A stretch of DNA of 35,469 nt from Acidobacteriaceae bacterium (lineage in GTDB: Bacteria; Acidobacteriota; Terriglobia; Terriglobales; Acidobacteriaceae), in assembly GCA_003156495.1 (NCBI GenBank), contig PMHC01000018.1, positions 1 to 35,469 of the forward strand, written 5' to 3'. The notes below the pieces were generated by a model. It saw only the letters and a program-made list of their open reading frames with translations. It was not told where the DNA came from and did no database searches. Both the position numbers and the translations under genes were made by a program. Every line of letters starts with the position of its first letter. Position 1 is the stretch's first letter. This document shows positions 1 to 34,760 of the stretch, in pieces.

Positions 1-2559
1 CGGATTGATCTGGGTCATGCTGAGCACGAGGGGAGCGCCGCCCTCCAGCGAACCGGTGTTTGCTTCGTCCGCTGTCCCATGTTCGAAGAAGATTCCATAT
101 CCGCCACGCAGAACTGTCTTGCCGCTGCCGGTCGGATCCCAGGCAAAGCCCACGCGAGGAGCGGGATTGAGGAGGTGGCTGGACATGCAGCCCGAAGGTA
201 TGCCGTTCTTACCGCATTGAACGATACCGTTGGTAACTTGCGGGTTGACGCTGCCGTCGCTTTCGTAAATTGGGATAACACCGTTGCTGCTGGCAACTCT
301 CAGTCCACCCTGGCTATCGACTGTAACCCCGCTTGCTGTTGTTGAACTGAATGCGGTCGGTTCCCAGTTATAGGCGTTGTTATTAAGTTCGTGAAAGGTT
401 CCGAACAGGCTCATGCGCAGGCCCAGATTAACCGTGAGCCGTGGCGTCATCTTCCAGTCGTCTTGAAAATACGGTTCGACGATCTGGTAACGCTGGCGGT
501 ATCGGCCCTGCCCGCTATCCTGCTGGAAGGTTGCAACCTTTCCCTGTCCGCCCGGAGTGTATGCATCGCGATAGTCATAGAGGAAATCGGCGAATGAATT
601 TCCGGTTCCACCCCTTAGATTGCTGAAGGTCAGCAGCCCTTGCGTATCGCCGGTAGCAGCCCCGATCGGCCCATTGGTCTGGTTCCGCTGGAAGATCACC
701 CACTGCGCGCCGAATTGGAAGTTGTGCCGTCTCCAGGTTTTGGTCAGATTATCGGCAAAGCTGTAGGTCGGGTTGCTATGCTCCCACGGCATGTAGCCGG
801 GATCGGTTGCAAAGCCGTAACCGCCGTACTCGGCATTGTTGCCAGCAATAGAAATTCCCGGCATCTTCGTGCTGCCATTGTTGAAGATGGTCCTCATGCC
901 GCATTGCGTAGAGGTGGAAGCTGACGTGCAAGATTCGTCGAGAGCCATGGGACGGGCCAAGCTCACTCCCGAACCGGCTACATCCGCAAGCGTGATATGC
1001 GAATTGGTGTAACTAGCGATGAATTCATTCAGAAAAGTGGGCGAGATCGCTCCGGTCAGGCGTGCCACGTAGCTGGTACCCGGCGCATAAAATCTGTTCT
1101 GGATGGTTGGGAAGCTGTTTTGCGTGCTGGCATACTGCGGAACCGGCGTGGTCTCGTTCCATTCATCGTGAATGTATCGGAAACCCGCCTGCCACTTGGC
1201 ATTGATGACGTGATCGATACGGAAGAGTTCCTCACGCCAGTAGGTCGGAAGCGAGACTTCACCATTGAAGCAAGCGGTGCCCGTGGAGTTGCATCCGCTG
1301 GTGGCGTTTGGGAGCGGGAAGATGCCGTTGCCCAAAAGAGCGGTCGCGTTCTGGTTGAGGAATACTGTTTCCGTTTGACCAGAAGCAGTGTAGGTTAACT
1401 GATTATTCGCAAAAGTGTAGGGTGTGCCGTTGAGTTCCGTTCCCGATTCTGGGCAGTCGGGATATGTCGTTCGATTGAAATCGACGCTGGAGTTCTCATT
1501 CAACGCCGCCGGGCAAACATCGCTAAAATCTCCGTTGCGCTCTGCGAGAGAGGGAACCGCCTGCCGATAGGCATACGGATCTTTTTCAATGCGCGCCTCC
1601 TCCGAGAAGAAAAAGTGTGTTTTATCCTTGGCGTCGTAAAGATGCGGAATCGACAGCGGTCCGCCGATGGTTCCGCCAAAATCGTTGCGGCGATAGAGAG
1701 GCGCGCTGTTGCCAACATCGAAGTATCCCTTGGCATTGAAATTTTCATTGCGGAAGAATTCGTAAACGCTACCGTGATACTGGTCCGTGCCGGACTTGGT
1801 GGTTACGATGGTCGTACCGTTGCCGGTGCTGGGGTACTGTGCTCCGTAGTTCGAGGTCAGCACCTTGATTTCTTGAATGGCGTCGATGCTGGGCGTCACG
1901 ATCAGAGAAGTATGGTCTTTGTTGATGCCAACGTTGAGCGTCTCCGAACCATCCACCTGAAAGCTGTTGTATTCCGTGCGCCCACCGTTGACCGAGTAAG
2001 ACACACTGCCCGCCATGCCGACACGGGCTTCATCCTGCTGCGTCTGGTTGCTGACGCCCGGAGCCATCGCTATCAGTTGCGAGAAGTTGCGGCCGTTGAG
2101 CTGAATGCCTGCAACTTCTTTGCCGGTGATCGTACCGCTGACCTCGGCATTCTCGGTGTTCAACTCCGTGACCGATGCGGAACCACCCTCGACAGTGACA
2201 GTAGATTGTGCTCCGCCCACCGCGAGTTGCACATTAAATACAAATGCTTGCCCCATGCCAAGTGAAACATCATGAGCGGAGACGTTGAACCCCGGTGCTT
2301 CCACAACGATCCGGTAGTGACCTGCCGTGAGGTAGGGAACGGTATACGATCCGGATGCGTCGGTTTCGGTGTGCAGTTGCACTCCGGTGTCCTGGTTGGT
2401 GATTTCAATTATGGCGTGACCTATGGCCGCGTTCTGCTGATCGGTCACTTGGCCGACGAATCTAGCATTCTGCGCGTGACTGGGAATGGCGACAAGAATG
2501 ACGAGAAATATAGGCAAAACTACGTCGAGGCGCTTCCTGAACAGTGCATACATTGTCAT
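1..2559 (-). CDS. Oar-like TonB-dependent receptor with N-terminal carboxypeptidase-regulatory-like domain (3' part truncated by window start)
   Basis: Manual reverse-strand translation from ATG at 2559: MTMYALFRKRLDVVLPIFLVILVAIPSHAQNARFVGQVTDQQNAAIGHAIIEITNQDTGVQLHTETDASGSYTVPYLTAGHYRIVVEAPGF...LNGRNFSQLIAMAPGVSNQ...VNGGRTEYNSFQVDGSE...IDAIQEIKVLTSNYGAQYPSTGNGTTIVTTKSGTDQYHGSVYEFFRN. Signal peptide, CarboxypepD_reg-like fold and plug-domain motifs. Not in the ORF track, presumably because no stop occurs before the window edge. Confidence 0.93.
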   Translation of the reverse strand, partial: MTMYALFRKRLDVVLPIFLVILVAIPSHAQNARFVGQVTDQQNAAIGHAIIEITNQDTGVQLHTETDASGSYTVPYLTAGHYRIVVEAPGFNVSAHDVSLGMGQAFVFNVQLAVGGAQSTVTVEGGSASVTELNTENAEVSGTITGKEVAGIQLNGRNFSQLIAMAPGVSNQTQQDEARVGMAGSVSYSVNGGRTEYNSFQVDGSETLNVGINKDHTSLIVTPSIDAIQEIKVLTSNYGAQYPSTGNGTTIVTTKSGTDQYHGSVYEFFRNENFNAKGYFDVGNSAPLYRRNDFGGTIGGPLSIPHLYDAKDKTHFFFSEEARIEKDPYAYRQAVPSLAERNGDFSDVCPAALNENSSVDFNRTTYPDCPESGTELNGTPYTFANNQLTYTASGQTETVFLNQNATALLGNGIFPLPNATSGCNSTGTACFNGEVSLPTYWREELFRIDHVINAKWQAGFRYIHDEWNETTPVPQYASTQNSFPTIQNRFYAPGTSYVARLTGAISPTFLNEFIASYTNSHITLADVAGSGVSLARPMALDESCTSASTSTQCGMRTIFNNGSTKMPGISIAGNNAEYGGYGFATDPGYMPWEHSNPTYSFADNLTKTWRRHNFQFGAQWVIFQRNQTNGPIGAATGDTQGLLTFSNLRGGTGNSFADFLYDYRDAYTPGGQGKVATFQQDSGQGRYRQRYQIVEPYFQDDWKMTPRLTVNLGLRMSLFGTFHELNNNAYNWEPTAFSSTTASGVTVDSQGGLRVASSNGVIPIYESDGSVNPQVTNGIVQCGKNGIPSGCMSSHLLNPAPRVGFAWDPTGSGKTVLRGGYGIFFEHGTADEANTGSLEGGAPLVLSMTQINP

Positions 2560-2567
2560 GTCCCTGC

Positions 2568-5432
2568 CTAGTCGTGATGGGGCGTTAAAGTGCTGGATGA
2601 AATTACTGCATGATCCGTAGTAGATACAGGTATGCGGGAGACAGCAGTGCGCACCTCAGTGGCAGACACTGCCAGGTCGTGAAGGATAAGAGGCGCGGCT
2701 CTTGAGTGTTCATCTCCCGCATAAACAAGTTCTTTTGCAAGAAGTAGGTTATGTTGCACAACATCATTTATGGTCGCTGGATTGCTTACGATAGTGTCCG
2801 CGCCGCGCAAGCGTCCTATGCCCAATGCTGGGAATATTTCTTCCTGCTCCCTGACTGCGATTGCGAGATGATTGATATGTTGGCGTACGAGTTCGTTCAA
2901 CAGAGTACGCGCTGCCGGTGTCAAAGGTTTGGAGGAAGGATATTGATGCTGTAGATCGCCAAGACGGCTATTTTCACGGACTAAGGTCGCCGACGAATTC
3001 AGGAGCAGAAAGGCAAGTTGCTGACAGCGGTCTCGTAACACACGCTGAGTTTCGCAGTAGCTATCCAGCGGGCTTTCTCCCGCCACAACCGACATTGCCT
3101 TGAGTTGATACCCTGAAGCATTTCCCGACTTTGATTCAAAGTCCCGGTAACTGAGAATATTCGAGGTGACATTCGGTATCATCCTCAACCGATCGGCAAT
3201 TTCCCGCTTGCGGCTTTCGCTCTCGACAATGCCTGTTACGGAGATTCCTCTGGCAGCTTGAGATACCTGCAATCTTTCGGTATCCGCATTCAGCTCTTGC
3301 AACGCCAGCAATACACCTAATCTCGCAATATCAATGTCGGATTCGCTTGGGCGCACCGAGCCCGGTAATAACGGCAGCGAGGATGAGCGGGAACCTATAG
3401 AACTGAGCGGGCTAGCCGCCGGTTCGAACCTGCCCTCACTTGCCGGTCCCCATGGAACCACGTCATAGGAGAGTTCTGCGATTTCAATATTGTCCTGGTC
3501 TCGAAAGCGCAAGGTTCTCGCTACAGGATGAAGATCGCTCAGTCTCACTGTTAACGATTCGCTGAGTACTGGACCTACAGCTGCCGTTGTGGTAACGGTC
3601 AGCAGGTTGCTTCCTACTTTCTCAACGTGATCGCGTTCGCCAATGACACGATCACGCCAAGACTGGAAGCCCGCAGACGACATTGGGTCATTCCAATCGA
3701 GGCCTGCTTTTTCCATCTTCGCTTTCAATACGCGCTCATCATGATCGATGGGCTGTACTTTCGGACGACGGCGGCCATCGATATCGCGGTAGATGTCACG
3801 TTGCAATGCGCGCCCTGCAACATGAATCGCAACTCTCTGGTGGACAACACCCGGACCATGTGCAATGCGTTGGTTTCTTTCCGAACTTACGCTTTCGTTG
3901 ATAAGAGTTGAAGCGCTGAGCTGCTCTCTTTGATGATTTGCTGCAACCCACAACAGAGTGCTGCAAACCAGGACCAAAGCCGCAGCAGTGATCGGTACAA
4001 GCGGCCTGGCTCGCAGTAACGAGGCTATTCTCTTAGTTAGACAATTCCACGCTCGCACCGCAATTGGCTGTACGGTTCCAGCAACAATGCCATTATTCGT
4101 CCCTTCGCGCTCTGCTTCGACGCCATTCGCTTCAAGCATTGTGACAAGGTGCAGATCATCAAATTCTTCGTCTTCATTGGAAACGGCGACGAAGTGAGGA
4201 TCGATGTATGTTGCCTCAATCGAGGCTCCATCAACCGTAAAGCTGACAGCCACTGTCAACGTTCTGTCGTCGCTCAATGCAATCTCACGCTTCAGCTCCG
4301 GCGGAGCTTGTGGCGGTCGCTGGAGAATTTCAAGCGAGAGCATCAACATCCCTTGTTCGCTGAATACCTCAATCATGTCGAGCGTTTCGATCGAACGGGT
4401 TTCCACCTTGAGAATCGCGCATGGGGAACCGATGTTTCGCACCGCGACAACCTCGGCGTTCAGCGCGATGACCAGTCCCGAGGGGCGATGCTCGAATATC
4501 TCGCGCACTCTTTCTTGCGCGCCGGCGAAGATTCGAGCAAATGCTTCTTTCTCCGACAAGTCTGGCCGCTTTGATTTTCCCGTATGGCGGGTTGGTTTCA
4601 AAGATTCCTCCATCGAACGAGTGGGTGGCGGCGGTGTCCCACAGAACCTCATGACTTTGTAGAGACAAACTTTACAGCTCACGATATGCGCCAGCAGATC
4701 GCTTTCCAAGGGGCGCAGATTGAGAGTGTGATAGTGGCGTTCAAGAGTTGCGTTGCTCGGGCAAGGGCCGCACGAAGAGTTGAAAATACTTTGCAAAAGG
4801 TCATTTGCAAAATCGCAAGAAGGAACTGCGGCTTTGAGAGGTTTGTACTCTGGCGCTGGACCGCGACGCAGTACGTGTAGCTTGGAAGGGTTCACAAGAT
4901 ATGTTTTCAATTCTTCCCTGGCATACCCCAAGGCAAGATCTACAGAGTGTCTGGAGATCAAACAAATGGAGGCAATTTCCTCGGGAGATAATCCATGAAA
5001 GAAGCGGAGAAGAAAGATGCTTGCAAATTTTGCAGAACGCCTTCTCCATAAAAGGAAGACAAGAATCTTGCGTATTTCATTCTGCGCTTCAATTTGATCG
5101 AATGACGTTGACACTGACGTGCGCAAACGGATCGAGAACGTATCGAAATCGACTGCACCCAGCCCCAGAAATGTTTGGCTCAAGCCACATCTGCGCTCTG
5201 TCAAATAGGCAAATCGCAGGTGTGTGTAGAGAAGAGGTTCAATGTCATCCAGATTCGATACTTCATCGCGAAGGCTAAGAATCCGCAAAAAGGTATCTTG
5301 GACCAGATCCTCTGCGGCGGCGCGATCATTTTGCACAAAGTGCATCGCCCATCGCAGTAACCATGGGTATTTGGCGGCAAACAGACTATCAAGTGTCGCC
5401 TTGGAATTTTCACGTGGATTGACCAGATGCAT
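2568..5432 (-). CDS. ECF-type RNA polymerase sigma factor fused to zinc-finger-like motif, TM helix and large periplasmic C-terminal region (BON-like segment)
   Basis: 954-aa ORF. Sigma region 2-like FAAKYPWLLRWAMHFVQNDRAAAEDLVQDTFLRIL; region 4-like HGLSPEEIASICLISRHSVDLALGYAREELKTYL; HIVSCKVC (HxxxCxxC); TM PLVPITAAALVLVCSTLLWVAA around residue 480; later LGVLLALQELNADTERLQVSQAARGISVTGIVESESRKREIADRLRMIPNVTSNI resembles a BON domain. Confidence 0.85.
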   Translation of the reverse strand: MHLVNPRENSKATLDSLFAAKYPWLLRWAMHFVQNDRAAAEDLVQDTFLRILSLRDEVSNLDDIEPLLYTHLRFAYLTERRCGLSQTFLGLGAVDFDTFSIRLRTSVSTSFDQIEAQNEIRKILVFLLWRRRSAKFASIFLLRFFHGLSPEEIASICLISRHSVDLALGYAREELKTYLVNPSKLHVLRRGPAPEYKPLKAAVPSCDFANDLLQSIFNSSCGPCPSNATLERHYHTLNLRPLESDLLAHIVSCKVCLYKVMRFCGTPPPPTRSMEESLKPTRHTGKSKRPDLSEKEAFARIFAGAQERVREIFEHRPSGLVIALNAEVVAVRNIGSPCAILKVETRSIETLDMIEVFSEQGMLMLSLEILQRPPQAPPELKREIALSDDRTLTVAVSFTVDGASIEATYIDPHFVAVSNEDEEFDDLHLVTMLEANGVEAEREGTNNGIVAGTVQPIAVRAWNCLTKRIASLLRARPLVPITAAALVLVCSTLLWVAANHQREQLSASTLINESVSSERNQRIAHGPGVVHQRVAIHVAGRALQRDIYRDIDGRRRPKVQPIDHDERVLKAKMEKAGLDWNDPMSSAGFQSWRDRVIGERDHVEKVGSNLLTVTTTAAVGPVLSESLTVRLSDLHPVARTLRFRDQDNIEIAELSYDVVPWGPASEGRFEPAASPLSSIGSRSSSLPLLPGSVRPSESDIDIARLGVLLALQELNADTERLQVSQAARGISVTGIVESESRKREIADRLRMIPNVTSNILSYRDFESKSGNASGYQLKAMSVVAGESPLDSYCETQRVLRDRCQQLAFLLLNSSATLVRENSRLGDLQHQYPSSKPLTPAARTLLNELVRQHINHLAIAVREQEEIFPALGIGRLRGADTIVSNPATINDVVQHNLLLAKELVYAGDEHSRAAPLILHDLAVSATEVRTAVSRIPVSTTDHAVISSSTLTPHHD

Positions 5433-5808
5433 CGCGCCTCTTTTATATACCCGTCAGAAAAAGGCTTCATCTCTCTTAGATTAACCAACTGTTTACCTTT
5501 AATTATTTCAACCGTAATTGATACAAAGTTTATCCATATTTAATGATTCCGTGGTTTGTCTGGGGATACTTTCTCACTCAGCACAAAGAAACCACCGTGG
5601 CGAGGCGCATAGTCAGGTTTCAGAACATTTCTAACAGCCTCAATACGACAACTGCTTATCTCGCATACATGGAATATGCGTTGTTAGCTTCCAACATTCA
5701 CCGAGCAGCGAAGCGGCCAAAACAGACTGTGACGCCGTTGCGTGAATTCACTCCCCTCTTCAAATGGGAGCAACCTCAACGCTGTTACACCGCAATGGAG
5801 ATGTCATT

Positions 5809-7584
5809 ATGAAATTTACGAAAGTAATCCCCGGAATCCTGGCGCTCGTAGCAACAGCCGCGTTTGCGTCAGTTCTGTCCGCGCAAACTCTTGAGGTGCT
5901 AACTGCGGGATCGTCCGCGCAGTTCGGTCCATTCGCAGTTGCAGCTTGGGCGCTTGCCACAAATGGGGGCGTCACGGCCTATCACTACACCGTCAAGAGC
6001 GGCAGCACCTGCCCCCTCCCCGGCGCCACTTTTCCCTCAGCCTCAACCTGCTACGCATACCTCAATGATTCCCGCAGCTCGAGCATCCCCTACGAACCCG
6101 GCAACCTCTGGGTGGTGTGGAACACCAATAACCAAGTTTGGGCGTACCTGAGCGTCGACTCGACCGTAGGCGTGCGGGCGTTCCAAGCTACACCACGCGC
6201 TACTTTGGGCCTTGCTAATCTGCCAAGCAGCGGGCAGTCTGCCTATAACTCCTATTTTGACGGAAATGCTGACACGGCAATCACCACCACTGTCACTAAC
6301 GCGCTGAACGGCCAAGCTCTTACGGCTGCCAACACCGACATCCGTCCCGAGGACGCGCTGTTCGCCACAAACCGCACGCTCAACACGCTTGAGTATGCAA
6401 CGTCGGCAGGCAGTCTAATCGGCAACGCCATCCAGAGCGCATTCGGCTCCTCCCCCGCCGTAGCTCACCCGGTCTCCTTTGCTCTCTCCGGCGGTACCGA
6501 TCCCTTCTCCGGCGAGACGATTCCCACCATTTACACCATTCCCGTTGGCGCGGCTCCGGTCGTCTTCCTGGCCAACACCACCAATCTCTCCAGCGCAACC
6601 AACATCACCTCCGCCAATGCCGCCTCACTGTTCAGTGGCACGGGCAACTGCGCCGGTAACCTGCTCGATGGAATCGCCTCTTCCGTCGCGCTCAGCCCCG
6701 TCCTGCGTGAACCGCTCTCCGGAACCATGAATACGGTGGAGTACTCCGTCTTCACGCTCAACGGCAGCTCCCAGGAAACCGGCATTAACGACGACTATCA
6801 GGCGCCTACTTACAGCGACATCAACCCGCTGAAACTGCCCTGCGGCAGCGGCTATCGCTATCGCGCTGTTGGTACCGGCGATGAAGTCAAGGCCGTCCAG
6901 GCCACCGCATCGGGCTATACGGGAACGACAAACACTATCGGTTATGCCTTCTACAGCGTCGAATCGGTGGCTCCAAGCAACAGTTACAAGTACCTCACCC
7001 TCAACGGTATCGACCCAATCAATTCGAGCTACTCCGCGGGCTCGCTTCCAACCTGCGCCACGAGCGGGGGTATTTATGATTGCCCGGTCGCTGGCGGCAG
7101 TTCCTTCCCCAACCTGCGCAATGGCACCTACCCCGCATGGTCCGTCTATCGCCTCATCACCGACAGCACCGGCCTGACAAACGCACAAGCGCTGGTCGAA
7201 AAGTCGGATGCCTTGGTCGACAACTACATTCCAGACTACGTTCCCATCACTCCGGTCTGCGCAAGTTTACTTACAACAGGAACAACCGATGAACCCGGCC
7301 TGGCTGCCTACCGCGAGCACTTCGTGCCCAACTTTTTGGCCAGCACCATCACAGCCAACGACGGCCCGATTGCCCTCACCAGCATCGAATACAACGCTAG
7401 CGACACAAGCGTTAGCTGTGGCAGTGGCCATTCTGCCTACACGCTTCCTTCCCTCACCCTGGGCGGCTCGGATCCCGCAGGCGAGTACAACGAAGCTGGT
7501 GGCGACGTGGGCGGCACCATTGTCGTTAACACCACTGGTGCCTCGCTGACACCTCCAGGCTCCATTCAGGCCTCAACTCATTGA
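5809..7584 (+). CDS. Secreted hypothetical protein, possibly PstS-like periplasmic substrate-binding fold
   Basis: Start placed at ATG 5809 (in frame with ORF 5764..7584): MKFTKVIPGILALVATAAFASVLSAQ signal peptide. Segments such as TIPTIYTIPVGAAPVVFLANTTNLSSATNITSANAASLFSG and NTIGYAFYSVE/YPAWSVYRLI are reminiscent of phosphate-binding-protein-like domains; family assignment is weak. Confidence 0.75.
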   Translation: MKFTKVIPGILALVATAAFASVLSAQTLEVLTAGSSAQFGPFAVAAWALATNGGVTAYHYTVKSGSTCPLPGATFPSASTCYAYLNDSRSSSIPYEPGNLWVVWNTNNQVWAYLSVDSTVGVRAFQATPRATLGLANLPSSGQSAYNSYFDGNADTAITTTVTNALNGQALTAANTDIRPEDALFATNRTLNTLEYATSAGSLIGNAIQSAFGSSPAVAHPVSFALSGGTDPFSGETIPTIYTIPVGAAPVVFLANTTNLSSATNITSANAASLFSGTGNCAGNLLDGIASSVALSPVLREPLSGTMNTVEYSVFTLNGSSQETGINDDYQAPTYSDINPLKLPCGSGYRYRAVGTGDEVKAVQATASGYTGTTNTIGYAFYSVESVAPSNSYKYLTLNGIDPINSSYSAGSLPTCATSGGIYDCPVAGGSSFPNLRNGTYPAWSVYRLITDSTGLTNAQALVEKSDALVDNYIPDYVPITPVCASLLTTGTTDEPGLAAYREHFVPNFLASTITANDGPIALTSIEYNASDTSVSCGSGHSAYTLPSLTLGGSDPAGEYNEAGGDVGGTIVVNTTGASLTPPGSIQASTH

Positions 7585-7626
7585 GATCTGTGTAAGAAGG
7601 GGCAAGGACAGGAAACGACAGCACAC

Positions 7627-7662
7627 TTTCCATCAGGGGACCTTCGAGTTCCCTGATGGAAA
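7627..7662. terminator. Strong stem-loop in the intergenic gap (terminator or attenuator candidate)
   Basis: TTTCCATCAGGG / CCCTGATGGAAA perfect 12-bp arms (7627-7638 and 7651-7662), extendable inward by a G-U, A-U and C-G pair around a TTCG-containing loop. No U-tract follows on the + strand. Confidence 0.6.
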
Positions 7663-7710
7663 TCTTGATTAAAAACAACTGATCTTTGATTCCAACTCCA
7701 GGAAGGCTCC

Positions 7711-10700
7711 ATGAAATCAACTTACGAAGCTTTGATCGATCTTCGGCGTTTCACAATCTGCCGTGTCTGGTGGTCCTATGTGTTGTTATTGCTCGGATTG
7801 GCTAGCTATGCTGTTGCCCAAACCGATGTTTCTTCTGGTTTCTTTCCCGGAGCCATCAATATCTATGCAGGAACCGGCGGGGCTACGGCCAGCGTCACCA
7901 ACGGCGACTCGCCCACAAACGACCCTATCGGCCGCCCTACAGCCGTGGCTGTAGACAGTGAGGGAGACGTATTTTTTGCGAATAGCACCTACCAGATTTA
8001 CATGGTCTATGCAGGTGGGTCAGTGCCTCCGATACTGGCCGCGGTCACCACGAAAGCCAGTACACCTGTGACACCCGTCGAGGGCGGCATTTATAACGTT
8101 GCTAATACCAATAGCGGTCCTTACAACTCGGGCTGTTCCAGTTCCGGTGTCACCGCGGCTAAGGCATACTTCACGAGTATCTCCGCGATCTGGCTCGACG
8201 CAAATGACAATCTCTATATCGCAGACTCGGGTTGCTATACCGTAAGCGAAATTGACCACGCGACCGCGGCCGCTCATATCATCGCTGGACAGGTCGGCAA
8301 AGAAGGCACCTCTTCTACAAACGCCAAGACCAACGGACAATCTCCAACCAGCATCAATCTGGGTCAGATCACCGACGTCAAGACCGACGCCTACGGCAAT
8401 GTCTACATTGTCGACGGCAATACAAACGCGGTGGTCTATGCCATCTACATGACCAGCGCCACGGCTCCTCCCCCGGTGCTAACTGCGGAAGGAGTAACTC
8501 CAGTACAAGGCGACATCTATATCATTGCCGGTAGCATGGATAATTACTGCGGCCCTTCACCCTCAAGCCCTTGCTACCAAGATGCTCCGGCGAAGAGCAC
8601 AATCCTTTCTGAGCCACAGTCTGTTTTTGTTGACACCGCAGGGAATGTTTATATTACAGACAATTGGGAGGATGTTCTCGACATCATCTACGTGGGTGAG
8701 GTAAACGGAGCCGTTCCTCCGGTATTGGTTAACGCAGGATATAACAGTCCCACAGTGAGCGACATCTACATAGTTGCGGGTACATACAACAAGACAGCGG
8801 TTAAAGCTTGCACAGTAAAACCCTGCGGCGATGGTGGACTCGCGACCGCAGCCTATTTCAAGACGCCCTATGATGTTCTTGTAGATTCGGCTGGCAATGT
8901 GTACATAGCCGATTACGGGGACAACGCCGTTCGCAAGATCGACACTTCGGGTTATATCTCGACTATTGCTGGAATCGACAATCCCTCTTCTCCAACCGCC
9001 AAACCAGCCACCTTGACCGCCGACGGAACAGCAGCTACGCGCGCGATCCTCTATCATCCGAGCGCGATTGCCTTCGATTCCACGCAGAGCAATCTCTACA
9101 TCGCAGACTACAACGACGTGGTCTGGCAGGTGGCGGCCGCAACGCCGCAGACCATTACTTTTCCCACGCTCACCAGTCCGGTCACTTACAGTGCAACCCC
9201 CATCACGCTGGATGCGACTGTACCGAGCGGCTTGCCCGTAACCTACACGGTCTCCTCCACCAGTCCCGCCACCGTCTCCGGTACCAGCGCAAGCGGCGCT
9301 TTGAATATGACCGGCGCCGGAACCATCGCCGTCACCGCCGCGCAAGCCGGGGGCACGGTCACATCTTCCGGCACAACCACCTATTACGCTCCCGCTACCT
9401 CCCTCACCCAGGACGTAACGGTAAACAAAGCGTCGCTGACGGTGACCGCCGACAGCCTTCACATGATCTATGAGTCCTCCGTTCCCACGCTGACCTACAC
9501 CACCAGCGGTTGGATCAGCAGCTCGGATCAGTCCAGCAGCACGGTGGTCACGGGCACGCCAACCCTTTCGACCACGGCCTCCAGCACCAAAGATTCCGGT
9601 ACTTATCCCATCACGATTGACTGCTCGTCCATGGTCTCAAGCGACTACACATTCAACTGCGCCAACGGCACGATGACCATCACCGGTGCTACCAAGCAGG
9701 CGATCACCTTTCCGGCACTCTCTTCTCTGGCCACCTATGGCCAGACCAAGACCGTTGCACTGTCGGCGGCGTCCTACTCCGGTACGACCCCCACCGGGCT
9801 GGCTATTACCTACACGGTGATCAGCGGACCGGGAGCGATCTCCGGCTCCACGCTGACCATTACCGGCGCGGGAACCATCGTCGTCCAGGCCAGCCAGAAC
9901 GGCAACGACATCTATGCGGGCGCCACGCCGGTGCAGCAAAGCCTTGTCGTCAATCCCGCGCCGCTGACGGTGGTTGCGCCCTCGCTCTCGCTCCCCTACG
10001 GGACCAACATCACGACGGAGCTGGCCGCCACCGCGCCGACTATTACCGGCTGGGTAGGCACTGACAGATCGTCACTAGTAAGCGGCAGTCCCAAATACGC
10101 CACCAGCGCCAGCAGCACCTCGGACCCAGGCAGCTTTACTCTTTCGGTGGCGCAAGGAACGCTGGCCGTGGCCTCGGCGGAAGCCTCAAATTACACCTTC
10201 ACAAACTTCGTTTCCGGAACCATTACCATCACCAAGGCCAGCCAGACGATCAGCTATGTTGCGCCAACGTCGATCACATACGGCGACTACCCAACCGTCA
10301 CAGCATCCGCCAATTCGAACACAACATCCGCCACGTCTGGCCTGGCGGTCACTGTAACCGCCACCGGGGCACTGACATTAACCTCCTCCAGCGGCACTAC
10401 GTTTGATTTCAACGCCAGCGGTGCCGGCACGGCCACTATCACGCTGACCCAGGCAGGCAACGCGGATTATGCCGCCACTACGCCAGTAGTGCTGAACTAC
10501 ACGATCAAGCAGGCCCCCCTCGATATAACAGCCACCAGTTACACACGAGAGCAGGGCGCAGCGAACCCGACCTTCGCGTACACGATTGGCACAACTACCG
10601 CGGGTGCGGTCGGTGGTTTCATGAACAGCGATACCGACATTCCTTCGGTGGTCTCCGGTGTGCCTGTGCTGACTACGACAGCAACTCAGGCTTCGCCGCA

Positions 10701-11355
10701 GGGGACGTACACCATTGCGGTCGACACAAGCACGATGACTTCGACGAACTATACCTTCGTCCCCATCAACGGAAAGCTGACTGTCACGCAGTCAGGCACT
10801 TATGCAATTACCGCCAATCCCTCTTCGCTCACCATTCAACGAGGATTGAGCGCCCAATCGACGATTACGATCACCCCATCGAATGAATACCAGGGAACGA
10901 TTACGCTGACTTGCGGCACATTGCCCGCGAACGTTACTTGCACCGTCAGCCCATCTACTTACACGTTTACCGGGGAGTATGTCTCGAACGGCTACACATA
11001 TGCGGAAAACCCGCAAACGGGGACCATCACCATCAATACCACGTCCGCCACGGTGGCCGGCGCTCTGCCTGCGCATGATTCCAACCTGCGCTTGGCTGGC
11101 TTCTTCATCCCAGGTGCGCTTGCCGGCTTGTTTCTTGTCTTCGCGCGCAAGCGGATAGCCAAGCGCAGCGCCATCTGGAGCCTGTGTGCTCTGTTCATGC
11201 TTGGCGCGGGAGCGCTAGCGATTACGTCGTGCAGCGGGTCGGTTAATACTGTGGCCGCACCAGGCACCCAAACCATCACTCTCACCGGAACCGGAACCAC
11301 GCCATCAGGCGGCACGGTAACCGCGACGATTCCGCTGAGCATAACCATTCAGTAA
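7711..11355 (+). CDS. Large cell-surface/secreted NHL-repeat protein with MBG-type repeats and C-terminal hydrophobic segment
   Basis: 1214-aa ORF with NHL-type repeats (DAYGNVYIVDGNTNAV, DTAGNVYITDNW, DSAGNVYIADYGDNAVRKIDTSGYISTIAG) followed by MBG-like modules (ASLTVTADSLHMIYESSVPTLTYTTSGW..., APLTVVAPSLSLPYGTN..., APLDITATSYTREQGAANPTFAYTI...) and C-terminal TM LAGFFIPGALAGLFLVFARKR... Confidence 0.85.
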   Translation: MKSTYEALIDLRRFTICRVWWSYVLLLLGLASYAVAQTDVSSGFFPGAINIYAGTGGATASVTNGDSPTNDPIGRPTAVAVDSEGDVFFANSTYQIYMVYAGGSVPPILAAVTTKASTPVTPVEGGIYNVANTNSGPYNSGCSSSGVTAAKAYFTSISAIWLDANDNLYIADSGCYTVSEIDHATAAAHIIAGQVGKEGTSSTNAKTNGQSPTSINLGQITDVKTDAYGNVYIVDGNTNAVVYAIYMTSATAPPPVLTAEGVTPVQGDIYIIAGSMDNYCGPSPSSPCYQDAPAKSTILSEPQSVFVDTAGNVYITDNWEDVLDIIYVGEVNGAVPPVLVNAGYNSPTVSDIYIVAGTYNKTAVKACTVKPCGDGGLATAAYFKTPYDVLVDSAGNVYIADYGDNAVRKIDTSGYISTIAGIDNPSSPTAKPATLTADGTAATRAILYHPSAIAFDSTQSNLYIADYNDVVWQVAAATPQTITFPTLTSPVTYSATPITLDATVPSGLPVTYTVSSTSPATVSGTSASGALNMTGAGTIAVTAAQAGGTVTSSGTTTYYAPATSLTQDVTVNKASLTVTADSLHMIYESSVPTLTYTTSGWISSSDQSSSTVVTGTPTLSTTASSTKDSGTYPITIDCSSMVSSDYTFNCANGTMTITGATKQAITFPALSSLATYGQTKTVALSAASYSGTTPTGLAITYTVISGPGAISGSTLTITGAGTIVVQASQNGNDIYAGATPVQQSLVVNPAPLTVVAPSLSLPYGTNITTELAATAPTITGWVGTDRSSLVSGSPKYATSASSTSDPGSFTLSVAQGTLAVASAEASNYTFTNFVSGTITITKASQTISYVAPTSITYGDYPTVTASANSNTTSATSGLAVTVTATGALTLTSSSGTTFDFNASGAGTATITLTQAGNADYAATTPVVLNYTIKQAPLDITATSYTREQGAANPTFAYTIGTTTAGAVGGFMNSDTDIPSVVSGVPVLTTTATQASPQGTYTIAVDTSTMTSTNYTFVPINGKLTVTQSGTYAITANPSSLTIQRGLSAQSTITITPSNEYQGTITLTCGTLPANVTCTVSPSTYTFTGEYVSNGYTYAENPQTGTITINTTSATVAGALPAHDSNLRLAGFFIPGALAGLFLVFARKRIAKRSAIWSLCALFMLGAGALAITSCSGSVNTVAAPGTQTITLTGTGTTPSGGTVTATIPLSITIQ

Positions 11356-13652: not shown

Positions 13653-15794
13653 TTATCTGTCTAAATCTGTCCGATAGATATTCACCTCTGGCGTGCGGGC
13701 GGTGACGATCGGCAGATCGCCTGGCGCCAGGCCGATCAACCGGTAATCTGCCGCCGAAATCGGCAGCAGGTTGTTGATTGTAGCGATGCGCTCCGGCTGT
13801 CCATGCGGAATGGCGATGCGGTAAATCGGACGTCCTGGCTCAAGAAAATCCTGGAAATAGAGATAGTCGCCATCATGAGAAAAGGTCGGGTCGCCGACGC
13901 CATGCGTAGTTAGCGTGCTCCAGCGCTGTGTAACCCGATCATAGAGCTTCAAGGATTTCTGGTCGAGCGGCATGGCGGCGATATAGCGGCCGTCGGATGA
14001 AAGTCTCGGACTAAACAGGCCCGCGGAACCAGGAATCTCCACCACCTTGTGGCTTTCCAAATCCAGTTGATAGATTGCTTTTGGTTGCACGTTATCCATG
14101 CGGTCCGGTGGACGGCCAAAAACAATGGAGTGCCCATCCGCGGACCAGGCCGGGTCGGCTTCATTACGATTTTCGTTGAGCACTGCAATCGGTTGCCCGC
14201 CATCCGTATCAATCAGATAAATCTTCCACGGCTTTCCGGGCTCGATTCCCATTACTGCCAACCGCTGGTTGTCGGGCGACCATTTCATGCTGAAGATCCG
14301 TAGCGGTGGCATGGTCAATTCGATGCGGTCCGAGCCATCAACGCGGCTACGCCAGAGCGAGTTGTCGGCCATATTTAGCCAAGCCACCCAACCACCATCC
14401 GGAGAAAACTCAGCTAGAACAGCCGCGCTTAAATTTTGATCGAAGACCGTAAAGGCGCTCGAATGCGGCAAGGCATGCAGGAGCTGAACTTCGGAGGTCG
14501 CGCCGAGAAAAGAGACGCGGCTGTTTCCAGGCGTCGTACTCGGAGCCTGATAGTCTAGCGGTCCGCCGGTTATCTGAAAGGGGTTGCGGCTGCCCCATTG
14601 CCACCAATGCAATTCCCGTTGCGCCCAAATCTCGTGATGGCCGTTATGCGAAGACTGAAAAACGAAATAGCGGCCGTTGCCGGTCCAGTTCCCGCAGCAC
14701 TCCGAGGCGGGCTGGCTCCAGCCGTCGAAGAGGGGATGGGCATTGGCGCCGTCGGCGTCCACTTCCCAAAGCGCCGAGGTCTGCCGTACGGCGTCGCGTA
14801 GCGTAAAACGCAGCTTGCGCCCGTCTGGTGACCAGCGTAGCCAAAAGGCCCAGCCCTGCGTTGTGAGCAGGTGGCGGGGATTGCTGCCGTTGCTGTTGAC
14901 GACTGTGAGCTCATTGCCGCTAGCCACGACGAGATGCTGCCCATCGGGCATCCAGGTTGCATCGTGCGCAAGAACGTTAGGAACCCGGCGCGCGTTTCCA
15001 CCCAGTGTTGGCACAATCCATATAGACTGTTCCGGTTCGGCTTGCAGATGACTCCGTACCAGCAGATTGGAGCCGTCCATCGAAAGTCCGCAGATCAGTG
15101 GTTCGCCAATTTCCGATGGCAGGTGAAAATAACTGATTTCGCCGTTGGCGATCAACGCGACAGCCAGAACCGGATTGCCATTATCGATAAGCGAAAAGTA
15201 AAGACGCGTTCCATCGCTGACCGAGCTTGAAAAACTTTCGACATCCAAGTCGTTTGTCAGCACGTGGCCGGAATATGTTACCTGCGCGATATTATAGGGC
15301 GCGCGAACCGGAGACCAAAGAAGCAACATTGCGCCTAGAGCTAGGCAAATCGCGGCCAATCCGGCGATCACCCATCGCGAAAGCTGGTTGAATTGAGGAA
15401 CGGTAGCTGGTGTGACTGAAACTGTAGCCGGTTCGGTCGTGGCAGGTTCAACCGGACTTACGGGAGCGATAAAGCGATAGCCGCGCTTGGCCAGGGTCTC
15501 TACAAAGCGTGGATTGTCGGCCGAATCGCCTAATGCCTCTCGCAGTTTATTGATAGCGATGCCGAGGCTGTGGTCGAAATCGACCGTGGTATCGGTGCCC
15601 CATAGCTCATGCTGTAAGGTTTCCCGAGGAACGACTTCGCCGGCGTGCTCGAGTAAGACCGCCAGCAACTTGAAAGGTTGGCTCTGCAGCCGTATACGAA
15701 TTCCGGAGCGATACAACTCGCCTGTTTCCAGATTGACTTCAAATACGCCGAATCGTACCTGGTCGATGACAGTTTTTTGCGGCTTATCTTGCAC
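13653..15794 (-). CDS. CadC/ToxR-like winged-helix regulator with TM segment and C-terminal PD40/TolB-like beta-propeller
   Basis: N-terminal VRFGVFEVNLETGELYRSGIRIRLQSQPFKLLAVLLEHAGEVVPRETLQHELWGTDTTVDFDHSLGIAINKLREALGDSADNPRFVETLAKRGYRFIAPV (Trans_reg_C); TM WVIAGLAAICLALGAMLLLW; repeated SPDG/SSDG/SADG propeller motifs. Confidence 0.93.
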   Translation of the reverse strand: MQDKPQKTVIDQVRFGVFEVNLETGELYRSGIRIRLQSQPFKLLAVLLEHAGEVVPRETLQHELWGTDTTVDFDHSLGIAINKLREALGDSADNPRFVETLAKRGYRFIAPVSPVEPATTEPATVSVTPATVPQFNQLSRWVIAGLAAICLALGAMLLLWSPVRAPYNIAQVTYSGHVLTNDLDVESFSSSVSDGTRLYFSLIDNGNPVLAVALIANGEISYFHLPSEIGEPLICGLSMDGSNLLVRSHLQAEPEQSIWIVPTLGGNARRVPNVLAHDATWMPDGQHLVVASGNELTVVNSNGSNPRHLLTTQGWAFWLRWSPDGRKLRFTLRDAVRQTSALWEVDADGANAHPLFDGWSQPASECCGNWTGNGRYFVFQSSHNGHHEIWAQRELHWWQWGSRNPFQITGGPLDYQAPSTTPGNSRVSFLGATSEVQLLHALPHSSAFTVFDQNLSAAVLAEFSPDGGWVAWLNMADNSLWRSRVDGSDRIELTMPPLRIFSMKWSPDNQRLAVMGIEPGKPWKIYLIDTDGGQPIAVLNENRNEADPAWSADGHSIVFGRPPDRMDNVQPKAIYQLDLESHKVVEIPGSAGLFSPRLSSDGRYIAAMPLDQKSLKLYDRVTQRWSTLTTHGVGDPTFSHDGDYLYFQDFLEPGRPIYRIAIPHGQPERIATINNLLPISAADYRLIGLAPGDLPIVTARTPEVNIYRTDLDR

Positions 15795-15972: not shown

Positions 15973-16098
15973 GGTATAGATTGACCAATCTTCTTCTAGG
16001 GGCGTTTCCTCATCCGTGGTTGCGAAATGGCGCGCTACAATTCCATGAATTTGCGGATGAGTAGCCGACTAGATCGTGATTTTTGGGAGGACTTTGTG

Positions 16099-19000
16099 AT
16101 GTCTATTATCAAAAGCAGCAAGTTTGAGCGGTTGAGTCGGGCCACAAGGAATTTCCTGGCTGTGACTCTCCTGTTGTTAAGCGCCGCTGTTCCTGCACTG
16201 TTTGCACAAACAGATACGGGCGCGATCTCCGGCACGGTTACCGATCCTACGGGAGCCGTTATTCCCGGGGCTGCAATTACAGCTACAAGCACAGAAAACG
16301 GCCTGAAGCTCTCGGCGGCCTCCAATGGAGCTGGCTCGTTTGTTATCCTGGCTGTTCCACGCGGTAACTATAGGGTTGTCGCTACGGCTTCGGGATTTGC
16401 TACCGCGGCCGCAACGGTGACCATTACCGTCACGACAACGCAGAACATTCCATTTTTGTTGAAACCCGCAGGGGCCTCAACAACCGTCGAAGTGAGCGAA
16501 TCCGTTCCCCTCGTGGATGTTTCCGACGCCACGATCGGCGCTACTATTCAGGGCGAGCAGGTTACCGAGCTGCCTTTGAACGGGCGGAACTTCTCAAACC
16601 TGGCGTTGCTGACTCCGGGCGTGACCCGCGGCGCCTATGGGGACATGTCTTCAGGCGGCGGCAGCAGCAATAATACTGAAACCGTGCGCAACAACGAAAG
16701 CGGCAACGCTTCGTTGGCTATCAACGGTCTTCGCCCCCAGGCCAATAACTACCTTCTCGACGGTGTCGACAACAACGATGGCCTGATCGGCACCATTCTC
16801 ATTTTTCCCAACATTGACGCCACGCAAGAATTCCAGGTCAATACCAACATCGCGCCGGCCGAGTATGGTCGCGCCGGTGGCGCAATCGTTCTCAGCTCCA
16901 TCAAAAGCGGTGCGAATAAGTATCACGGCTCGATCTTCGAGTTTTATCGCGACCGCAGTTTCGACTCGAACCCAAATTACCGCTTCAACGGAGCCCCGGT
17001 GACGCCCGCCGGTGGTTTTCTGCGCAATCAACCCGGTTTCTCCATCGGCGGACCGATTATCAAGAACAAGCTCTTCGGCTTTGGCGATTATCAGGCGCTT
17101 CGCGAGAAGATCGGCGTTTCCTCGCAATATCTGACAGTACCTACTACGTTGATGCGCCAGGGCATCTTCACCGAGCTTGAAGATTCCGGGCAGAATGCCA
17201 ATTCTAACAACGGCAGCTACAAGACGACCTATCCCTTGTGCGTGACCGGAGGTTTGGCTGGCAAAACCAGCCCGGGCCTGATCTACGATCCCACCACGTG
17301 CACGCCTTTTGCCGGCAACACCATTCCTTTGGACCGCCGTAATTCGGCCGCGATCAATTACCTCAACGCTTTCCCGACGCCCACGCGTACGGACCGCTAC
17401 CTGGATAACTACTATCTCACTACGCAGTCGGAAAAGAACAACTACAACACCTTCGATCTTCGCTTCGATTGGAACGCCACGGCGCGCGACGTTGCTTTTG
17501 TGCGTTTCAGCTACGACAACTCGGTCAACTCGAAGACCAGCGAGTTTCCCAAGCTTCCTGCCGGTAGTGGCACGGGCACTAACCCGACGCACGCTCGCAG
17601 CTATGCTCTCGGTTACACGCATATCTTCACGCCGACCATCGTCAATGAGGCGCGCATCGCCTATAACCGCGACAATTATGGCTATATGCCGCCCATGTAC
17701 GGTCAATACGTTTCAAAAGACCTTGGCATCGTCAACGCCAACATCAACCAGCAAACTACTGGTGGCGCGCTGATCGGCGGCTGGGCGGGCGAACTTACAT
17801 ACACGGGCGACTATGGCCTTTACGCCGTGCCGCAGAATACCTATGAAGTGAATGACTCGGTAAGCTGGAGCCGCGGCAAACATTCACTCAAGTTTGGTGG
17901 AACCTTTATCCGTCGCGAGGTGGCCTTCTTCAATCCGCAGGAAGGCAAAGGTTACTTCTGGATCGACAACGGTACGGTGATCTATACCGGCTACGAAGTT
18001 TCCGAGCTGCTGGCCGGTGGCCTGTATAACTACCAGATCGGTTCGCAATCGGGCTACTTCGCCAACGAAGGCCAGGAGGACGGTATCTTCGGACAGGACA
18101 CTTGGCATGTCAACCGGCGGTTGACGCTGAATCTCGGCTTCCGCTGGGATCTGCTAACCCGGCCCTACGAAAAACATGATCAGCAATCGGCCTTTAACAT
18201 CGCGGCGGGAACCGTATGGATTGCCAACAAAAACGGCATTTCGCGCGCGATCCGCGATCAGGATTATCACAACTTCGGGCCGCGCGTCGGCTTTACCTAC
18301 GATCTGTACGGCACCGGCAAGGCGATTCTCCGCGGCGGTTATGGAATCTTCTACTTCCAGGACTACGGCGGCATCGATAACCAGCTTGGCGAGCAGGCGC
18401 CTTTCGGCGGCAGCAACAGTTACCTGGCTTCAAACGGTTATTGCACGACCCTTACCGGCCAGCTTCCCACGCATACGGGATCATACAACTGCTCCGGATA
18501 TACCAGCTCGGGCGCGGTCACCACGGCGCTGCCCGCGCGCGGTTATACGAACTTTGACGCTTCCAATCCACCCGAAGGCACCAGCATGATTGCCGTCAAC
18601 CGCGGCAATTCGAACAGCATGGTGCAGGAGTGGAATTTGCAAATCGAGCAGCAGCTCGGCTCGAATAACGTGGTCAACCTCGCCTACGTCGGTACGCACG
18701 GTTCAAATCTGAGCACGTACTATCCGTATAACATCTACCAGTTAAATACCGGGGTGAAGAACTTTGCTACGCTTGGCGATATCACCTACAACAACTACAA
18801 CGGCATTTCGAACTATAATGGCCTGCAGCTCCACGCTGAACATCGCACCAACAACGGCTTGATCGCAACGGCTTCCTACGCCTGGTCGCACACGCTTGAT
18901 GATTCACCCAGTGCGTTCCTTAGTCAGACCGCCGCGCTTTACTACGATCCGATGGCCGGCTACGGAAACTCAAGCCAGGACCAGCGCCAAGTCTTCAGCT

Positions 19001-19539
19001 CCTCGATCCTTTATCAACTTCCCTTTGGTCGTGGCCAGCGTTTTGGCGGCGCGGTTTCACAGCCTATGGACTGGCTGATTGGTGGTTGGCAGGCCAGCTT
19101 CATTGGTCTGCTGCAATCCGGCACGCCGGTCGATCTCTCTGTTGGTTCGAACAACCCCAGCAATCGTCCTGACCAGGTCGGTAACATCAACTATCCGAAG
19201 AGCGTTCTCGGTTATTGGTTCAATCCGAAAGCCTTCTCTTCTAGCATTCCGACCATCACCGCTTCCGACGGCACTACGGTTTTTACGCGCCTCGGAACCT
19301 TGCGCCGCAACCAGGTTAGCGGTCCTAGTTATCGCGTAGTTAATCTCAGCCTTCAAAAAAATCTCCACCTGACCGACAAGTACACGTTGGAGTTGCACGG
19401 CGACGCATTCAACCTTTTGAATACGGCTGAATTCGCCAACCCGACCTCTAGCATGAGCGACTCAAACTTCGGCAAGATCGAAGCGATCCAGGTTTACAGC
19501 AACCGCCAGATTCAGTTGGCGGCGCGGTTTACCTTCTAG
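16099..19539 (+). CDS. Oar-like TonB-dependent receptor with carboxypeptidase-regulatory-like domain
   Basis: Start placed at ATG 16099 (TTGGGAGGA upstream). AQTDTGAISGTVTDPTGAVIPGAAITATSTENGLKLSAASNGAGSFVILAVPRGNYRVVATASGF; ELPLNGRNFSNLALLTPGVTRG; DGVDNNDG; C-terminal NRQIQLAARFTF ends in Phe. Confidence 0.95.
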   Translation: MSIIKSSKFERLSRATRNFLAVTLLLLSAAVPALFAQTDTGAISGTVTDPTGAVIPGAAITATSTENGLKLSAASNGAGSFVILAVPRGNYRVVATASGFATAAATVTITVTTTQNIPFLLKPAGASTTVEVSESVPLVDVSDATIGATIQGEQVTELPLNGRNFSNLALLTPGVTRGAYGDMSSGGGSSNNTETVRNNESGNASLAINGLRPQANNYLLDGVDNNDGLIGTILIFPNIDATQEFQVNTNIAPAEYGRAGGAIVLSSIKSGANKYHGSIFEFYRDRSFDSNPNYRFNGAPVTPAGGFLRNQPGFSIGGPIIKNKLFGFGDYQALREKIGVSSQYLTVPTTLMRQGIFTELEDSGQNANSNNGSYKTTYPLCVTGGLAGKTSPGLIYDPTTCTPFAGNTIPLDRRNSAAINYLNAFPTPTRTDRYLDNYYLTTQSEKNNYNTFDLRFDWNATARDVAFVRFSYDNSVNSKTSEFPKLPAGSGTGTNPTHARSYALGYTHIFTPTIVNEARIAYNRDNYGYMPPMYGQYVSKDLGIVNANINQQTTGGALIGGWAGELTYTGDYGLYAVPQNTYEVNDSVSWSRGKHSLKFGGTFIRREVAFFNPQEGKGYFWIDNGTVIYTGYEVSELLAGGLYNYQIGSQSGYFANEGQEDGIFGQDTWHVNRRLTLNLGFRWDLLTRPYEKHDQQSAFNIAAGTVWIANKNGISRAIRDQDYHNFGPRVGFTYDLYGTGKAILRGGYGIFYFQDYGGIDNQLGEQAPFGGSNSYLASNGYCTTLTGQLPTHTGSYNCSGYTSSGAVTTALPARGYTNFDASNPPEGTSMIAVNRGNSNSMVQEWNLQIEQQLGSNNVVNLAYVGTHGSNLSTYYPYNIYQLNTGVKNFATLGDITYNNYNGISNYNGLQLHAEHRTNNGLIATASYAWSHTLDDSPSAFLSQTAALYYDPMAGYGNSSQDQRQVFSSSILYQLPFGRGQRFGGAVSQPMDWLIGGWQASFIGLLQSGTPVDLSVGSNNPSNRPDQVGNINYPKSVLGYWFNPKAFSSSIPTITASDGTTVFTRLGTLRRNQVSGPSYRVVNLSLQKNLHLTDKYTLELHGDAFNLLNTAEFANPTSSMSDSNFGKIEAIQVYSNRQIQLAARFTF

Positions 19540-19687: not shown

Positions 19688-19779
19688 CAACACTAAGGGG
19701 CGAAATGATCAGGTCATGGTACTGGCGCGCTTGTGGCCTGCGTCTGCTCATTCATGTTGTCTTGTTGGGAGAGATTCTT

Positions 19780-21690: not shown

Positions 21691-21759
21691 GTACGCCAGA
21701 AGAAAAGGCCACGGCAACCGCGCGATGATTATTCCGGTTGCGGCTGCAGGAGGTGTGGA

Positions 21760-26843: not shown

Positions 26844-27086
26844 ATGGCGGAAGAGATCAGCTTAACCATCGACGGAGAGACGGTACGCGTGGCGCGGGGT
26901 ACGAGTGTGGCGGCGGCGATTTTGAAAACGGGCAAGCTGTCGCGTACCTCGGTGAGCGGCGAGCCGAGAGGGCCGTTTTGCGGTATGGGCATCTGCATGG
27001 AGTGTCGGGCGACGATTGACGGCGTGGCGCAGCAGACAACCTGCCGGCGGCAGTGCGAGCCGGGCATGGAGGTCGTGACGGGATGA
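26844..27086 (+). CDS. (2Fe-2S)-binding small subunit of an amino-acid/opine-type dehydrogenase (HcnA/LhpF-like)
   Basis: 80 aa; ISLTIDGETVRVARGTSVAAAIL...PFCGMGICMECRATIDGVAQQTTCRRQCEPGMEV, a plant-ferredoxin-like 2Fe-2S cysteine pattern. Confidence 0.85.
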   Translation: MAEEISLTIDGETVRVARGTSVAAAILKTGKLSRTSVSGEPRGPFCGMGICMECRATIDGVAQQTTCRRQCEPGMEVVTG

Positions 27087-31800: not shown

Positions 31801-32772
31801 ACAACGATGGATACGGCTATCCGTTGTGCAACCTGCTGGGCTCGGCCTTTACGCCTTGCACCTCGGTCTTCGGTTATACGGGGTCAGGAAACTATCCACT
31901 GAACTTCTTCCAGGCGAATCCTTATTCCGGCGGCAATTCGACGGGATATTTGACGGGCATGGGGTACTCGACTTACCAGTCGATGCAGGTGGACTTCCGC
32001 CAGCAGCAGTGGCATGGGTTGCAGGTGGAAGCCAACTACGTCTGGTCGCACACTCTGGGCAATGGCGGCGGCAGCAGCGCCGGCGGCGGAGTTGGTCACA
32101 GTCCGCTGATGACACTGCATAACCTGCACATGAATTATCGTCCGGCGAACTTCGATATCCGGCATGTAATCCACATCAACGGTACGTACGCGCTGCCGAT
32201 TGGGCGTGGCAAGCAGTGGCTGAATAGCGACAATATATTGAGCCGCGTGGCAGGCAACTGGACGGTCGGCACTATTGTGACCATACAGACCGGCACACCG
32301 ACGCAAATGACGGGCGGATGGGACACCTACAACGAGTATTCGGATGGCGGTGCGCAAGCTGCAGAAAGCGGTAGGCGTTCACCGCCTGTCGAAGTCGCAG
32401 CAAGCAAACTTGAATGGTTCAAGCTCCTATGTGCTAATGGTTGATCCGAAGTATCTGACATCGTCAACGATCGGCGGCGCCAACAGTAACTACATCAACT
32501 CCAACACCACGGCGGGCACTTATGGCGCGATTCCGTACCTGTATGGTCCGCATGGGTTCTATCAGGATGTTTCGTTGACCAAGGAATTTCCGCTATACCG
32601 GGAAGCCCGGGTCAAGTTCCAGGGGGTAGCGCAAAATGCGTGGAACCACCCGGTATTTGGCAACACGGGTACGCTGATGGACGTTTCGGCGCAGAGCACG
32701 ACCTTCGGCGAGCAGAGCGGTCCTAGCAACAGTCCTCGTTCGATGGATGTTCGACTCACGGTCGAATTCTAA
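28857..32772 (+). CDS. Oar-like TonB-dependent receptor, C-terminus in a shifted frame
   Basis: ORF 28857..32444 (GSQGTVSVTVEDVTGGVVPDADLTLVALATNDTHY...LPMVGRDVSIFATLVPGYAG) ends out of family context; overlapping ORF 32344..32772 supplies the expected C-terminus (NLNGSSSYVLMVDPKYL...GFYQDVSLTKEFPLYREARVKFQGVAQNAWNHPVFG...MDVRLTVEF). Confidence 0.85.
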
Positions 32773-34647: not shown

Positions 34648-34760
34648 GCCACTCCTCTTTTTTTTGCGTACCAAGAAACACTATTGCAACGAACGGGATT
34701 CGCCGTCGAGAGAGAAAGCGGTGCGAATCCCGTGTCGATTTCAGTTTGCCTGTGCGAAGC

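Follow-up and report, generated by a model that had tools for sequence, protein, structure and literature searches.

The window, the whole 35,469-nucleotide stretch of DNA that was analysed, carries on its minus strand a 954-aa ORF at 2568–5432 with a complete reading frame. An ORF of this length had been annotated initially; its existence stands, with the strand corrected to minus, the plus strand of 2568–5432 having stops throughout. From N to C terminus, the layout is an ECF sigma factor (regions 2 and 4), an HxxxCxxC motif, a cytoplasmic beta domain, one transmembrane helix, and a periplasmic sensor with LolA/RseB-like and BON-like parts. A TonB-dependent receptor gene starts 8 bp past the stop codon, on the same strand. 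The features are as follows.

2568..5432, minus strand: fused sigma/anti-sigma/sensor gene, complete, 954 aa (51 loci share the layout)
5211..5384, minus strand: Sigma-70 region 2, residues 17–74 (Pfam PF04542, E 1.7e-6, above cut-off)
4911..5021, minus strand: Sigma-70 region 4 helix-turn-helix, residues 138–174 (Pfam PF08281, Sigma70_r4_2, E 2.2e-5)
4644..4817, minus strand: zinc anti-sigma-like (ZAS) region, residues 206–263 (HxxxCxxC at 4665–4688)
4200..4481, minus strand: cytoplasmic beta-sandwich domain, residues 318–411 (structure model; without Pfam match)
3945..4001, minus strand: single transmembrane helix, residues 478–496 (hydropathy maximum 2.29; same place in 15/15 fusions)
3453..3851, minus strand: periplasmic domain 1, LolA/RseB-like fold, residues 528–660 (AF2 model and Foldseek)
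3150..3344, minus strand: periplasmic domain 2, BON-like, residues 697–761 (model and fold comparison)
2637..3071, minus strand: helical C-terminal periplasmic region, residues 788–932 (model, low to moderate confidence)
1..2559, minus strand: Oar-type TonB-dependent receptor, cut by the contig end (CarboxypepD_reg E 2e-16, OMP_b-brl_4 E 1e-94)
2224..2457, minus strand: CarboxypepD_reg domain of the receptor, at the site that an STN signalling domain would occupy (Pfam)

The N-terminal part contains regions 2 and 4 and no region 3, as defines an ECF sigma factor, with the Sigma70_r4_2 score (24.4 bits) falling just under the 25.7 cut-off. In addition, residues 15–179 match whole-domain ECF/FecI-like NCBIfam models, the best at an E of about 2e-12 and none passing its curated cut-off. 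Among 15 aligned fusions, Pfam matches Sigma70_r2 in 13 and region 4 in only four of the relatives. Mean identity is highest in the sigma part (0.36, versus 0.31 and 0.22 for other parts of the protein). The matches bear out the sigma regions 2 and 4 recognised by the initial annotation and strongly support placing this part among the FecI-like ECF sigma factors.

The sigma part is followed by the segment HIVSCKVC (residues 249–256), which conforms to the HxxxCxxC pattern noted there earlier. Specifically, H249, C253 and C256 are invariant across the 15 aligned fusions, and predicted helices 244–252 and 254–263 flank the motif in a low-confidence cytoplasmic model. The motif lies near residue 250, and the transmembrane helix near residue 470, in all 15 fusions measured; Pfam zf-HC2 has no match in the window protein. 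The stretch described initially as a cytoplasmic linker of about 200 aa is not a plain linker, as it holds at 318–411 a conserved domain of ~95 aa, predicted to fold into an eight-stranded sandwich and marked by the motifs EHRP...IEVFSEQ...LSD.R. The cytoplasmic model has a mean pLDDT of 52, is poor outside this sandwich, and gives no significant match in Foldseek. The single helix expected near residue 480 is located at about 478–496 and is the sole strong hydrophobic segment. Together, these features strongly support reading the middle part as an anti-sigma region of the zinc type (HxxxCxxC) followed by a putative new cytoplasmic beta domain.

The predicted periplasm is present, with a LolA-fold domain at its start that had been overlooked. 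In Foldseek, domain 1 matches LolA (7z6w, E 9e-6) and MucB (6in9, E 0.02), with the best TM-score, 0.56 to the target, obtained for 4mxt. Domain 2 is predicted to have an alpha-beta-beta-alpha-beta order (pLDDT mostly 74–88), and the BON-like character proposed for residues 697–761 is upheld by fold comparison (OsmY, E 0.007; YscD, E 0.035), not by Pfam, which gives no significant match for this stretch. The mean pLDDT of the periplasmic model is 61, with the folded parts mostly at 75–88 on thin alignments; structure models were made for proteins from the window and from loci L117 and L118, all with thin input alignments. Pfam scans of 15 fusions detected neither a FecR domain, even at E values as high as 1, nor a carbohydrate-binding domain. 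A sequence search of the whole window protein against solved structures gave no match.

Four of the receptors were scanned with Pfam. All four combine CarboxypepD_reg with an outer-membrane barrel, which is the definition of the Oar type (PMC6434023), and none of them has an STN domain, from which CarboxypepD_reg is reported to be distinct (PMC6434023). In known cell-surface signalling, the STN domain of the receptor makes contact with an STN-like counterpart in the anti-sigma factor (PMC11637429). At all 51 fusion loci, a gene for an Oar-type receptor directly follows on the same strand, usually across a gap of no more than 70 bp; at a few of the 51 the contig ends within the receptor, one receptor (L145) is frameshifted, and those of L138 and L140 are full-length by tblastn. 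The neighbouring TonB receptor pointed out in the initial annotation is thus a constant companion. At a further locus, L093, fusion and receptor are both broken, suggesting that they were lost as a pair.

Further Oar-type receptors lie in the window at 16027–19539 and 28857–32444. The latter belongs to a plus-strand receptor at 28857–32772 whose last ~100 barrel residues lie in another frame, 32344–32772 matching the end of OMP_b-brl_4; this frameshift would be either real or due to assembly. Divergent from the receptor at 16027–19539 is a minus-strand gene (13653–15794) for a 713-aa protein that joins an OmpR-type DNA-binding domain to WD40/PD40 beta-propeller repeats. By eye, a hydrophobic stretch separates the two, and the protein is likely another one-chain membrane regulator. 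Downstream of an Oar receptor, an alpha-amylase-like gene and then an alpha-glucosidase-like gene (19705–24303, plus strand, by reading) form a possible starch/maltodextrin uptake locus. Genes for a pyridine-nucleotide-disulphide type FAD oxidoreductase (27053–28339, plus strand), an aldehyde dehydrogenase (33058–34674, minus strand) and a DHDPS-family protein (34761–35462, minus strand) resemble a hydroxyproline breakdown cluster. Divergent from the fusion gene are a 606-aa ORF that has no Pfam match (5764–7584, plus strand) and, after it, a gene for a secreted protein of 1214 aa containing NHL and MBG repeats (7711–11355, plus strand).

We read 51 different fusion loci, 17 in a first set and 34 in a second, with the broken locus L093 counted apart and with L118 and L165, which have identical upstream sequence, being one locus. 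The 51 come from one family and, as full fusions in two genomes (G645 and G708), from two further families of the phylum. Two loci from the same genus as the window, L032 (1003 aa) and L033, have the same layout. With the zinc/beta region as a probe, 14 of 399 class genomes were positive, as were 33 of 398 family genomes, covering 15 of 79 genera, one or two of the matches being weak. The genome-contig scan used five closer sequences, the broad alignment having no sufficiently conserved stretch. The highest number of copies per genome is six (G802), and no plasmid-borne copies were found when looked for. The claim of a single ORF joining sigma, zinc-type region, transmembrane helix and periplasmic part is therefore confirmed, 51 loci sharing the layout, and there is good support for a one-chain membrane-tethered ECF sigma factor that has a zinc-type anti-sigma region, transmembrane helix and sensor and is encoded next to a TonB receptor. 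In the papers searched, no fusion of sigma to anti-sigma adjoining an Oar receptor has been described before for Acidobacteria; it may already be grouped within the 2021 ECF classification.

Upstream of the fusions, the 5-mer AGATT occurs in 10 of 16 regions, exceeding the best 5-mer of any of 500 shuffles. In 36 further upstream regions it was observed in 6 against 5.1 expected, which is no replication, and on these counts AGATT was rejected as a general autoregulatory promoter motif; it is at most a sub-lineage feature.

The same parts also occur as separate proteins. At L031, the gene of a 244-aa ECF sigma factor overlaps that of a 601-aa protein with HxxxCxxC, one transmembrane helix and a periplasmic part, followed by an Oar receptor; the periplasm of this anti-sigma factor and that of the window protein share 31% identity across 248 aa (E 2e-26). 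We read 20 more sigma/anti-sigma pairs of this kind. All 21 stand-alone anti-sigma factors examined carry HxxxCxxC, as does an unfused relative, L137, and the homologous sensor occurs in 58 of 399 class genomes, making the split form more widespread than the fusion. Six stand-alone pairs with the sensor type of the window (L099, L101, L103, L104, L105 and L108) have no receptor found next to them, and in five of these, L105 excepted, a large secreted lipoprotein-like protein comes after the sigma/zinc anti-sigma pair. L137, from another family of the phylum, has a gene for a 458-aa zinc/beta/transmembrane protein and then a gene for a 195-aa sigma factor (6239–8232). Its sigma factor scores 122 bits against the fusion sigma model, versus 25 at most for ordinary split sigmas; its periplasmic part differs, and no receptor adjoins. 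The beta domain is seen only in the fusions and in L137 and was not detected in stand-alone anti-sigma factors. Since split versions exist and L137 has the module as two genes, the non-sigma half of the fusion can be read as an anti-sigma factor, a reading that these comparisons support. Homology strongly supports, in addition, that the transmembrane helix links to a predicted LolA-like plus BON-like sensor of the kind found in stand-alone acidobacterial zinc anti-sigma factors.

The two halves of the fusion have different histories. A tree of the sigma parts, built from 16 fusions together with 21 split pairs, places every fusion in a single clade (support 100/100) on a very long branch. In the periplasmic tree, the fusions are not one clade (AU p 0.001): six, including that of the window, lie among stand-alone anti-sigma factors and ten lie elsewhere. 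For the sensor half, inheritance of the fusion as one protein throughout is rejected by the same test. As the sigma halves form one clade and the sensor halves do not, the trees show a sensor half that has been exchanged with stand-alone regulators as a module.

Furthermore, the sensor tracks the receptor. Over 44 fusions, receptor distance correlates with sensor distance given sigma (partial r 0.58; 0.64 for the N-terminal 250 residues of the receptor; p 5e-4), versus −0.06 and −0.03, respectively, for receptor against sigma given sensor, and the first set of 16 fusions alone shows the same direction. Long receptors accompany one sensor class in 12 of 15 cases and the other in 0 of 28. These patterns strongly support the view that sensor and receptor evolve or move together, although the genes are DNA neighbours and joint transfer alone could yield the correlation, without protein contact.

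The layout was flagged initially as unusual in comparison with the split FecI/FecR arrangement. The combination does differ, but one-chain precedents exist. IutY of Pseudomonas putida (ECF243-type) is a sigma/transmembrane/anti-sigma hybrid beside the TonB receptor IutA (PMC5411451, PMC9249621) and is alike in having a cytosolic ECF sigma factor, one transmembrane helix and a periplasmic anti-sigma/sensor part in one chain. Unlike the 954-aa window protein, with its zinc region, beta domain and LolA plus BON sensor, IutY has 374 aa and a FecR-like periplasm, and IutA is described with all typical characteristics of a cell-surface-signalling receptor, whereas the window receptor is of the Oar type, with CarboxypepD_reg and no STN. 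ECF52 (SCO4117 of Streptomyces coelicolor; PMC5826349; review PMC8999054), and likewise ECF48 and ECF53, join an ECF sigma factor, zinc finger, transmembrane helix and outside domain in one chain. ECF52, however, is reported to be exclusive to Actinobacteria and has a proline-rich region and a carbohydrate-binding domain where the window protein has LolA/BON, and its descriptions mention neither the TonB receptor nor the cytoplasmic beta domain present here.

Among split systems, FecI/FecR/FecA also encodes a sigma factor, membrane anti-sigma factor and TonB receptor together, but as three proteins with FecR and STN domains, both absent from the fusions and receptors scanned. Because no FecR or STN domain was found, the fusion is neither FecIRA nor IutY by family. 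RpoE/RseA/RseB (AlgU/MucA/MucB) shares the ECF sigma factor, one-helix anti-sigma factor and LolA-fold periplasmic sensor; those proteins are separate and report envelope stress, whereas in the window they form a single chain, linked to a receptor gene and supplemented by a BON-like domain. The stand-alone acidobacterial operons (for example L031, with an anti-sigma factor of ~600 aa) share the homologous sensor, HxxxCxxC, one transmembrane helix and Oar receptor, and differ in their separate sigma and anti-sigma genes, a sigma factor of the ordinary ECF clade and no detected beta domain. The principle is thus known from IutY and ECF52, and the combination of a zinc brake, a LolA/BON sensor, an Oar receptor lacking STN and sensor exchange looks new.

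We propose that the gene probably encodes a one-chain cell-surface-signalling regulator of the adjoining Oar-type receptor, held by a zinc brake and released by proteolysis. In the resting state, the zinc domain would hold regions 2 and 4 of the sigma factor clamped within the same chain. The LolA/BON sensor would detect a change arising either at the receptor or within the periplasm, which would expose the chain to a site-1 protease and next to a site-2 (RseP-type) protease; the freed sigma/zinc/beta fragment would then be trimmed, join RNA polymerase and switch on the operon including the receptor. Cis clamping, sensor reading and two-step release are inferred here. The genome encodes a homologue of the site-2 protease family. 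For the IutY hybrid, which Prc and RseP activate, proteolytic release is established (PMC5411451, PMC9249621), and for ECF52 it has been proposed (PMC5826349, PMC8999054). Counting against this explanation are the absence from the receptor of STN, through which known systems pass the signal, the failure of AGATT to replicate as an upstream motif, and the joint transfer that could by itself account for the sensor–receptor correlation.

The missing STN domain also fits a different source of signal, in which the sensor reads the state of envelope lipids or lipoproteins as RseB does and the receptor is a co-regulated target. The LolA/RseB fold of the first periplasmic domain agrees with this, as do the stand-alone sensor relatives that precede a large secreted protein and not a receptor (L099, L101, L103, L104 and L108). 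We nevertheless consider it unlikely, given that a receptor adjoins every one of the 51 fusions and that sensor type tracks receptor type over the 44 compared. Quite improbable is a sigma factor active while tethered, in which a conformational change passed along the transmembrane helix would open the zinc clamp and the membrane would be where RNA polymerase is recruited, no proteolysis being needed. Among the known one-chain relatives, IutY is freed proteolytically and ECF52 is proposed to be (PMC5411451, PMC5826349, PMC8999054), and the genome has site-2 protease genes, even though the extra beta domain, undetected in stand-alone anti-sigma factors, could relay such a signal. We give very little credence to a sigma part devoid of promoter activity and kept as a regulatory or structural domain: region 4 stays under the cut-off in the window protein, only four of 15 relatives match it, and the fusion sigma clade has a very long branch, but no other part of the protein is as well conserved as sigma, and region 2 is matched in 13 of 15. 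Finally, the window contig belongs to a fragmented, 63% complete assembly, yet sequencing or assembly having joined two genes, like the frameshift considered initially, has practically no chance of being the explanation and a chance or frameshift origin is excluded, because 51 loci, including some from genomes in one or a few contigs, share the layout, and H249, C253 and C256 are invariant in 15 fusions.

The proposed regulator, with its zinc brake and proteolytic release, would be a sigma switch in a single protein, with the ratio of sigma to brake fixed at one to one. The same sensor occurs in both a one-chain and a two-chain form of the regulator–receptor pair, which makes it possible to test each form against the other. 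The natural chimeras, in which one sigma module is joined to varied sensors and receptors, allow signalling across the envelope to be dissected. More tentatively, cell-surface signalling in Acidobacteria may include a class of its own, in which Oar receptors lacking STN would signal via CarboxypepD_reg to zinc anti-sigma factors with LolA and BON domains, and in which one lineage would have fused sigma, brake and sensor, with the sensor half exchanged as a cassette together with the receptor gene. If true, one sigma module would have been rewired to new receptors through the exchange of sensor and receptor cassettes.
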